This document shows, in pieces, positions 24,404 through 28,574 of a stretch of DNA of 64,000 nt; positions within the stretch are counted from its first letter, which is position 1, and each line of letters starts with the position of its first letter. The stretch lies in assembly GCF_008931805.1 (NCBI RefSeq), contig NZ_CP044399.1, positions 4,203,370 through 4,267,369 of the forward strand. Direction: 5' to 3'. The notes under the pieces are model-generated. The model made no database searches. It was not told the origin of the DNA and saw nothing but the letters and a program-made list of their open reading frames with translations. The position numbers were made by a program, and so were the translations under genes. The DNA comes from Moritella marina ATCC 15381. GTDB lineage: Bacteria; Pseudomonadota; Gammaproteobacteria; Enterobacterales; Moritellaceae.

Positions 24404-25935
<1,532 letters not shown>

Positions 25936-25996: not shown

Positions 25997-26016
25997 AAAA
26001 AAAAGGCGCATTGATA
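25997..26016. terminator. Left half of the split murA/degS bidirectional terminator, with target duplication GATA
   Basis: A run of eight A residues (25997-26004) and the arm GGCGCAT (26005-26011) are followed by TGATA; GATA at 26013-26016 is the left copy of the target duplication. The matching arm and seven T residues lie at 27447-27460. Without the insertion the arms would form a 7-bp stem with a TGAT loop flanked by A8 and T7. Confidence 0.88.
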
Positions 26017-26041
26017 TGAAGTGACCCCATTAAGTTGGACA
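26017..26041. repeat. Left terminal inverted repeat of the IS element
   Basis: This 25-base end begins TGAAGTGACCCC and ends AGTTGGACA. It matches the reverse complement of 27419-27443 at 20 of 25 positions; the mismatches are one near the tip and a block of four in the middle. Confidence 0.9.
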
Positions 26042-26047
26042 TTTTAG

Positions 26048-26833
26048 TTAAGCGGCTTGTAAGGCCTGGTTTCGATATTCTATCGGAGTCAGGCCTTTTA
26101 ATTTGACCTTAATCCGTTTCGTGTTGTAATACTCGATGTATTCATCAAGCTTTTCTATCAATTCATCGGCATCTTTGAATTTCTGCCTATGATACATTTC
26201 TGTTTTTAATAAGCCAAAAAAGTTTTCTGCCACCGCGTTATCTAAGCAGTTCCCTTTTCTCGACATGCTTTGCGTCAGTCCATGCGCAGCTAGTTGTTTT
26301 TGATATCCCCTATGGCGATATTGCCATCCCTGATCGCTATGTACTATTGGCTTTGAATGCTCATCTAAATTATTGATAGCATCTCTTAACATATCAGTAA
26401 CCAGTGGCAAACGGGCATCTTTAGCTATCTTATAAGCGACAACCTCTTTGGTAAATAGATCTATAACTGGTGATAAATAAACTCTCTGGTCCCTAACCTT
26501 AAATTCAGTGACATCGGTTGCCCACTTTTCATTTGGCTTAGTAGCATTAAAGTTTCGTTCAAGTACATTAGGTGCCGTTTTTCCAGCTCCGCCCTTATAA
26601 GAACTGTATTTTTTAGGTCTTACTGTCGATTTTAGATTTAATTGAGCCATCAGTCTTTGCACCGTTTTATGGTTTAGCATAAAGCCTTGCCTTTTCAGTG
26701 TTAAATGAATTCTGCGATAGCCGTAGCGACCTTTATGTTCATGATAAATTTCTTTGATAAGCGCTAACTCACGCTCATAAACATTCGGTTTTTCACTTAC
26801 TTTTACTTGATAATAGAACACACTTTTAGCCAA
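26048..26833 (-). CDS. IS3-family transposase OrfB (DDE integrase), made as an OrfAB fusion
   Basis: This is the catalytic half of the transposase: an HTH_21-type N-terminal region (about residues 20-75) followed by an rve integrase core with Asp107 (WATDVTEF), Asp167 (VHSDQGW) and Glu203 (NAVAENFF), spaced D-35-E. The only start in this stretch is a TTG at 26833. The frame is open further upstream to the end of orfA and lies in the -1 frame to it. The upstream codons read TVLALKNKHALKHLLQAIQ, like the usual OrfB entry. The real product is therefore probably a frameshifted OrfAB fusion. Confidence 0.92.
   Translation of the reverse strand: MAKSVFYYQVKVSEKPNVYERELALIKEIYHEHKGRYGYRRIHLTLKRQGFMLNHKTVQRLMAQLNLKSTVRPKKYSSYKGGAGKTAPNVLERNFNATKPNEKWATDVTEFKVRDQRVYLSPVIDLFTKEVVAYKIAKDARLPLVTDMLRDAINNLDEHSKPIVHSDQGWQYRHRGYQKQLAAHGLTQSMSRKGNCLDNAVAENFFGLLKTEMYHRQKFKDADELIEKLDEYIEYYNTKRIKVKLKGLTPIEYRNQALQAA
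26061..26099 (+). terminator. Plus-strand hairpin inside the left end of the IS
   Basis: AAGGCCTG at 26061-26068 pairs with CAGGCCTT at 26090-26097, with an inner CGATA/TATCG stem, and is followed by TT-AATTT on the plus strand. It lies in the last codons of orfB, in antisense orientation. It could end murA transcripts that now run into the IS. The T tract is short, so this is tentative. Confidence 0.45.
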
Positions 26834-26889
26834 CTGAATGGCTTGAAGAAGGTGCTTTAGAGCATGTTTATTTTTGAGAGCTAAAACCG

Positions 26890-27393
26890 TTACCGTTTTT
26901 TCTTTGTTTGTCGGCGCTTTGCCTGCTCTAGCTCTTCCAACTTTTTTAACACAGCATTCTCTGCTCGTAGATAAGCAAGCTCTTCTTTCAGCTCTTCTGT
27001 TGTCATTTCACTATCTGGTTTTGTGGTCGTATTAGATTGTTTCATTTTAAGCCTACTTATTGAGGAGCGTTCAAGCCCTCTTAAGCCAAACTCGTTATAT
27101 TTTTTTAACCATACAGAGAGCGTACCGGGAGAAGACTGATTTAATATGGCACTAGTGTGATTGAGAGACCATTCATTTGTCCACATTAATTTTAATGCTT
27201 GTAGCTTTGTTTTTGCATTGCTGGCATGCAAATTTGGCAGGAATGCATCTGTGCCATGAATTGCAAAGACTTGAGTCCAATATCGAATTAACTGAGAGGG
27301 TATTGATAGTTCATTCGCTAATATTCTAGATGACTTACCATCTAGACACTGTTGTGCAGTGATAAGTTTAAACTCACGGCTATATTTTGACAT
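26890..27393 (-). CDS. IS3-family transposase OrfA (helix-turn-helix protein)
   Basis: This 167-residue DNA-binding protein has two helix-turn-helix regions (about residues 5-50 and 65-115; for example KLITAQQCLDGKSSRILANELSIPSQLIRYW) and a C-terminal coiled coil (about 130-155) for dimerisation, ending in a basic tail. It recognises the IS ends. Its last codons, AAG AAA AAA CGG, hold a run of six A residues (minus strand, 26896-26901), a probable site for the -1 frameshift into orfB. Its ATG directly follows a T8 tract. Confidence 0.9.
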   Translation of the reverse strand: MSKYSREFKLITAQQCLDGKSSRILANELSIPSQLIRYWTQVFAIHGTDAFLPNLHASNAKTKLQALKLMWTNEWSLNHTSAILNQSSPGTLSVWLKKYNEFGLRGLERSSISRLKMKQSNTTTKPDSEMTTEELKEELAYLRAENAVLKKLEELEQAKRRQTKKKR

Positions 27394-27437
27394 AAAAAAA
27401 AGACCCCTAATAATTGGTTGTCCAACTATTGGGGGTC
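27394..27437 (-). terminator. Terminator carried by the IS just before the orfA start codon
   Basis: On the minus strand, 27437-27422 pairs with 27417-27402 (16 bp with one mismatch and one G-U) around a 4-base loop. Eight T residues (27401-27394) follow, and the orfA ATG comes directly after. The 5' arm lies within the right inverted repeat. Transcripts entering from degS should stop here, shielding the transposase gene from read-through. Confidence 0.75.
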
Positions 27438-27443
27438 AGTTCA
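27419..27443. repeat. Right terminal inverted repeat of the IS element
   Basis: This 25-base end, read inward on the minus strand, begins TGAACTGACCCCC and ends AGTTGGACA. Most of it also forms the 5' arm of the internal terminator hairpin at 27402-27437. Confidence 0.9.
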
Positions 27444-27460
27444 GATATGCGCCTTTTTTT
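27444..27460. terminator. Right half of the split murA/degS terminator, with target duplication GATA
   Basis: GATA (27444-27447), the second target-site copy, runs into the arm ATGCGCC (27447-27453) and seven T residues (27454-27460). It is the partner of 26005-26011, now 1.4 kb away. Confidence 0.88.
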
Positions 27461-27482: not shown

Positions 27483-28574
27483 TTATTGCTGAGGTTGTAG
27501 AGCCTGCAATTCACCTAGGGTTACCGATATATCGAACTGCTTACCCTCACGTATAACGGTTAAGTTAATTTTTGCACCAGGACGCTGCTCGGCAACCGAA
27601 TCCATTAACCAAATTACATTATCAACCTCGGCACCATTAAATTTGATGACCACATCACCAGAGATAAGACCGGCTTTTTCAGCTGGAGAATCTGGCGCAG
27701 TATTCTGCACGACTATGCCCTGATTGTCTTTTAATCCGAGTAATTTAGCCATCACTGTATTGATCGACGTCCCTTCTATACCTAAGTAGCCACGTATGAC
27801 GCGACCATTTGCAATCAAGGCATCCATGATTTTAACGGCTAGTGGATAGGGGATTGCAAAGCTAATACCCATTGTTTCAACATTCTTTGCAACCTGAAAG
27901 GAAGCTGTATTGATACCGACTAGTTCACCTAAGCTATTCACCAGAGCACCGCCGGAGTTACCTTCATTAATTGCTGCATCAGTTTGTAAGAAGTTTTGAT
28001 GGCCAGTGGTACTCATACCGATACGGCCCCGAGCACTGATAATGCCTTGCGTAATGGTTTGGCCTAAATTGTATGGGTTACCAATGGCAAGTACGACGTC
28101 ACCAATGTTGGTTTGCTCGTGTTTACTTTGTGGAATGCTCGGTAGATTCTTAGCATCTATGTTGAGTACTGCGAGGTCGGTATAGCGGTCAAAACCAATT
28201 AACTCAGCAGTGAAGAATCGACCATCTTGTAGTGCGACAATAATTTGGTCTGCATCAGCAATAACGTGATAATTTGTGAGTAAATAGCCTTTTTTATTCA
28301 TGATCACACCAGAGCCGAGACTTTGCGGGCGTAATGTCGCTTTACTGTTAATCGTTGATTTTTGGTAGGTGCGAGTATAGATATTCACAACAGAAGGTGC
28401 AGCACGCTTTACCGCAGCAGAAAAGCTCATTTGTTCATTAAGGCCTAATGAAAATGGCTGGCTGAGTGCTAAACCTTGCTTACTCTGTAATTGTGGTAAC
28501 GCTAACAAGAGTACGGCGGCGACCGCAATACCGAGGAAGATACTTTTCGAAACATATGACCACAAATTTTGCAC
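27483..28574 (-). CDS. degS: Outer-membrane stress sensor protease DegS
   Basis: DegS is an inner-membrane-anchored serine protease. It senses unfolded outer-membrane protein tails through its PDZ domain and cuts RseA to release sigma-E. The 363-residue protein has an N-terminal membrane anchor (about residues 11-27), the triad His103, Asp133 and Ser207 (GNSGGA), and a single PDZ domain (about 270-355). It is the distal gene of the degQ-degS pair. Its own terminator downstream has been interrupted by the IS. Confidence 0.96.
   Translation of the reverse strand: MQNLWSYVSKSIFLGIAVAAVLLLALPQLQSKQGLALSQPFSLGLNEQMSFSAAVKRAAPSVVNIYTRTYQKSTINSKATLRPQSLGSGVIMNKKGYLLTNYHVIADADQIIVALQDGRFFTAELIGFDRYTDLAVLNIDAKNLPSIPQSKHEQTNIGDVVLAIGNPYNLGQTITQGIISARGRIGMSTTGHQNFLQTDAAINEGNSGGALVNSLGELVGINTASFQVAKNVETMGISFAIPYPLAVKIMDALIANGRVIRGYLGIEGTSINTVMAKLLGLKDNQGIVVQNTAPDSPAEKAGLISGDVVIKFNGAEVDNVIWLMDSVAEQRPGAKINLTVIREGKQFDISVTLGELQALQPQQ

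Follow-up and report, generated by a model that had tools for sequence, protein, structure and literature searches.

The insertion sequence between murA and degS of Moritella marina ATCC 15381 sits within the loop of a predicted bidirectional terminator that the two genes share. Very probably it represents a branch of the IS150 group that chooses its targets by structure and carries its own inward-facing terminators, which would replace the one that it splits. With more reservation, we favour the broader reading that this branch is widespread, recognises terminator loops and swaps in paired terminators, some of which become permanent.

A transposon within a shared terminator

The element was located in a window of 64,000 nucleotides, the whole stretch of DNA analysed here; it is 1,427 bp long, has the ends TGAA...TTCA and is flanked by a GATA target duplication (Table 1). 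Joining the flanks minus one GATA copy yields A8-GGCGCAT-TGAT-ATGCGCC-T7, exactly the empty site given in the preliminary description. The rebuilt hairpin folds with a minimum free energy of -18.3 kcal/mol (z = -6.1), which none of 200 shuffled sequences equalled, and the duplicated GATA is made up of GAT from the loop and the base with which the right arm begins. murA and the degS-like gene converge on it. In all ten same-genus genomes compared (10/10), the murA-degS gap is uninterrupted and contains the hairpin, as GGCGCATTGATATGCGCC in most and as GGCGCATTCAAATGCGCC or GGGCGCATTATATGCGCCC in the others; an empty site devoid of the hairpin was not found among them. The GC-rich stem, the A and T runs, the convergent genes and the retention in every congener are those of a bidirectional intrinsic terminator, as first described.

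Table 1. Features of the murA-degS region (window coordinates).
Feature	Position	Strand	Basis
murA, UDP-N-acetylglucosamine enolpyruvyl transferase	24673..25935	+	420 aa ORF, Pfam EPSP_synthase E=3e-124
A8 tract (25997-26004) and left arm GGCGCAT (26005-26011) of split terminator	25997..26011	.	sequence; empty site in 10/10 congeners
GATA target duplication, left copy	26013..26016	.	sequence
IS3-family, probably IS150-group, insertion sequence, 1,427 bp; IRR at 26017, IRL at 27443	26017..27443	-	sequence, Pfam, NCBIfam
orfB, DDE integrase core	26048..26901	-	Pfam rve/HTH_21, NCBIfam transpos_IS3
Predicted inward terminator near IRR, AAGGCCTGGTTTCGATATTCTATCGGAGTCAGGCCTT + TTAATTTGAC, facing murA	26061..26107	+	pattern scan, folding, covariation
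orfA, 167 aa, HTH_28	26890..27393	-	ORF, Pfam
Predicted inward terminator at IRL, GACCCCCAATAGTTGGACAACCAATTATTAGGGGTC + T8, facing degS	27394..27437	-	folding z=-4.6, conservation, covariation
GATA target duplication, right copy	27444..27447	.	sequence
Right arm ATGCGCC and T7 tract of split terminator	27447..27460	.	sequence
degS-like periplasmic serine protease	27483..28574	-	trypsin and one PDZ domain

Classification and additional copies in Moritella

OrfB scores 319 bits against the IS3-family model NF033516 (cut-off 160) and matches Pfam rve, rve_2 and HTH_21. The TGAA...TTCA ends are likewise those of the IS3 family, as are the target duplications, of 3 bp at 52/87 and 4 bp at 19/87 of the sites surveyed below. 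The orfA and orfB frames overlap at an A6 run (26896-26901, minus strand) in the frame required for a -1 frameshift, through which orfB is presumably reached. The closest named elements, IS150, ISKpn8 and ISPsy9, share about 56% identity in OrfB, and IS150 falls inside our OrfB tree, which does not contain the other IS3 subgroups (IS2, IS51, IS407, IS3). Of the named relatives that carry the element, Moritella sp. PE36 is the nearest (94% OrfB identity).

The M. marina genome holds three full copies. Copies 1 and 2 differ at only two bases, and transposition was therefore recent. Copy 2, between pckA and greB, splits the hairpin AAAAAATGCCAGT…ACTGGCATTTTTT, which is intact at the empty site of 10/10 congeners; copy 3 splits AAAAAAAAGGCCGTCAC…GTGATGGCCTTTTTT, and both its site and that of the nrfA remnant discussed below show an intact hairpin in nearly all congeners. 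Across the genus, seven of the eight full copies interrupt clear terminators; the remaining copy (L049) splits a degraded hairpin with two mismatches. Because all three copies in the M. marina genome and seven of eight in the genus interrupt a clear terminator hairpin, chance can be excluded.

On the left side of copy 3 (L003), an IS6-like transposase gene and element end abut the split terminator, and further genomes of the genus share this IS6-like end sequence. The IS6-like element was considered as the source of the terminator at copy 3 and does not explain it. At another locus (L045, G001:C27:2028-2073), a near-perfect palindrome, TGAAATGACCCCCAGTAATTGG...GGGGGTCATTTCA, has element ends on both sides and is possibly a minimal non-autonomous unit.

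Hairpins among 87 insertion sites

Whole-genome searches and one contig scan provided 87 distinct insertion sites with both ends located, representing 38 element types from Vibrionales, other Gamma-, Beta- and Alphaproteobacteria, Firmicutes and Bacteroidota. Under a fixed rule requiring a stem of at least six Watson-Crick pairs, at least three of them G-C, around the junction, a hairpin was present at 72/87 sites (83%), and a terminator-like hairpin, with an additional A or T run, at 64/87 (74%). When left and right flanks were re-paired across sites, a mean of 25.8 terminators (30%) and a maximum of 35 were obtained, while 1.6% of random and 2.6% of non-ORF control positions scored as terminators. 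The enrichment was seen both in the closest clade, with OrfB identities of 62% and above (50/61 sites), and outside it (14/26 compared with 4.5 expected from shuffling), and the OrfB tree shows no single clean origin of loop targeting. Of 56 cases that could be scored, 48 had the target duplication within the loop, and the median offset was 0. As the 64 terminator targets comprise 59 different arm sequences and show no orientation bias, target choice appears to follow structure more than sequence. The survey rules out a one-off insertion at murA/degS and, together with the Moritella copies, shows terminator loops, earlier suggested as a plausible low-cost target, to be a real target of this element.

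The terminator rule was missed at 23/87 sites, 15/87 having no qualifying hairpin; some of these non-fitting sites lack a target duplication or appear degraded. Hairpin targets lacking a T-run were found at L119, L136 and L146, and two copies in Pseudomonas sp. KUIN-1 (L110, L113) lie in REP-like palindromes without T-tracts. Given such targets, the palindrome or hairpin, rather than termination itself, appears more likely to be the recognised feature.

Predicted inward-facing terminators at both ends

Near IRR, the plus strand carries AAGGCCTG…CAGGCCTT followed by a short and broken T-tract (TTAATTT), antisense to the end of orfB. At IRL, the minus strand carries GACCCC…GGGGTC followed by T8, directly upstream of the orfA start codon. 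These hairpins are predicted to fold with -22.7 and -21.6 kcal/mol, compared with -18.3 kcal/mol for the split hairpin, and both are present in nearly all of the 38 element types. The pattern scan missed the IRL hairpin, probably owing to a C/A mismatch in the stem of the murA-degS copy, and folding recovered it. Among 35 distinct elements, the IRR helix has a covariation score of 0.360 compared with 0.159 after shuffling, with two-sided changes in 8/14 pairs (49 such changes compared with 15.5 expected from shuffling), although this hairpin overlaps the conserved orfB end and coding constraint could account for some of this conservation. The IRL helix scores 0.232 compared with 0.127 after shuffling, the weaker signal being due to its outer arm forming the fixed inverted repeat. 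With predicted terminators at both ends and compensatory changes retained in each, the element most likely substitutes for the terminator that it splits, probably on both sides.

Alternative readings

The preliminary description had gone further and held that the insertion abolishes termination of murA and degS. Under that reading, the element destroys the shared terminator and transcripts of each gene read into the element and into the antisense of the other. The terminator arms are indeed 1.4 kb apart and local pairing between them is impossible. However, each end of the element holds a predicted inward terminator no less stable than the one that was split, compensatory changes across the group have preserved the end hairpins, and loss of termination would be costly at 64 independent sites. 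Because of the predicted terminators at both ends, we reject loss of termination as the default; this part of the description found no support, and we regard it as very unlikely.

The element might insert anywhere, with only insertions in harmless places such as terminator loops surviving. Terminators are intergenic and the copies observed have already passed through selection, and survivorship of harmless insertions may contribute to the site pattern. As the whole explanation it is the least probable of those considered, since terminator hairpins occur at few non-ORF positions (2.6%) and yet at 74% of sites, the duplication is centred on the loop, and E. coli IS150, under like selection, resides in coding genes and in the stems of sok hairpins. 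A transposase reading a primary motif (A-tract, GCC ... GGC, T-tract), to which the hairpin is incidental, would account for the many arms that start with GCC after an A-tract, an arrangement whose frequency is reflected in the 30% of shuffled flank pairs that still score. Even so, the observed proportion far exceeds the shuffled maximum, complementarity in the 59 distinct arms extends past GCC, and L119, L136 and L146 are palindromic targets that lack a T-tract, so that we consider this reading unlikely; a sequence component may contribute to recognition. Structure-based target choice remains the reading that we prefer.

Model and implications

Based on these observations, we propose a hypothetical sequence of events in which (i) the element targets the loop of a palindrome rich in G and C, in nearly every case an intrinsic terminator, and duplicates 3-4 bp of that loop, as the comparison of sites shows; (ii) polymerase entering IRR from murA or IRL from degS would stop soon after entry, as sequence, folding and covariation suggest; (iii) owing to its two own terminators, the insertion would be nearly neutral to the host; (iv) outside transcription would be kept from the transposase genes, the IRL hairpin standing directly before orfA, and in read-through transcripts the GGGG of this hairpin would bury the likely orfA ribosome-binding site; (v) later decay can leave one end of the element alone, as comparison shows at nrfA and an abgT-like gene, where it would serve as a permanent terminator.

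Such a system shows a way for a transposable element to spare its host, by targeting the end of a transcription unit and bringing a substitute, and constitutes a mobile source of new terminators. It offers a clear case for studying hairpin or palindrome recognition by a DDE transposase, and possibly a natural tool for safe-harbour insertion. It also cautions that an insertion sequence between convergent genes need not abolish termination.

Relation to other hairpin-directed elements

E. coli IS150 shares with the Moritella element the orfA/orfB layout, TG...CA ends and an OrfB 56% identical; it measures 1,443 bp and generates 3-bp duplications. In contrast, its sampled copies occupy either the stems of sok hairpins at hok loci or the coding genes traC and rbsD, where no hairpin is present, and a strong terminator hairpin is not evident at its left end by inspection. 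The copies at hokA, hokB and plasmid mok (L196-L206) lie within one arm of the sok hairpin, that is, in the stem and not the loop. IS150 itself was thus considered as a loop-targeting element and set aside, its 11 E. coli loci (about six distinct sites) not being loop-specific; target behaviour therefore varies within the IS150 group.

According to PMC1525189, IS1397 and ISKpn1 (IS3 family) and ISPsy8 are directed to REP or palindromic units, and it is the transposase that determines the target. IS1397 and ISKpn1 differ from the Moritella-type element in that they use one repeated REP sequence per species, whereas the latter enters many unrelated terminators, its 64 terminator targets having 59 different arm sequences, and carries replacement terminators. 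IS1272/TnSha1 of staphylococci (IS1182 family) targets terminator hairpins without a primary-sequence consensus, several of them confirmed by RNA-seq, and makes a blunt cut in the stem, whereby part of the hairpin is deleted and a target duplication is absent (PMC4923244). The Moritella-type element resembles IS1272 in using terminator hairpins as targets and differs from it in family, in its 3-4 bp duplications and in leaving the arms intact. None of the systems compared targets the loops of diverse terminators, duplicates its target and also carries two inward terminators. The open-access literature searched contained no report of terminator targeting by the IS150 group; key reviews of insertion sequences lay outside its scope and an earlier description is possible.

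Fate of decayed copies

At nrfA, the nearest congener (L244) has the intact hairpin AAAAAATGCCGACATGATGTCGGCATTTTT. In M. marina, the left half of this hairpin and most of the element are gone, and a 103-bp IRR piece (L006/L062, G000:C2:1183740-1183842) keeps the predicted inward terminator, placed to serve nrfA. Beside a tRNA gene, an abgT-like gene in five Moritella-group species (L253-L257) is accompanied by a lone IRL-like hairpin with a T-run, which shows changes on both arms across the five species and is apparently the terminator of this gene. In both remnants only the terminator of the element is kept, suggesting lasting replacement. Among solo IRL pieces in the genus, 10/12 end at the T-run of the hairpin, four of the twelve representing one orthologous locus. 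Such ends fit terminator retention, and similarity-based detection may exaggerate their sharpness. At one further locus (L008/L064, G000:C2:485903-485931), AAAAATGCC and GGGCATTTTTT flank an IRR fragment of 28 bp, an arrangement that looks as though a single base change in the element end had recreated a terminator together with the former left arm.
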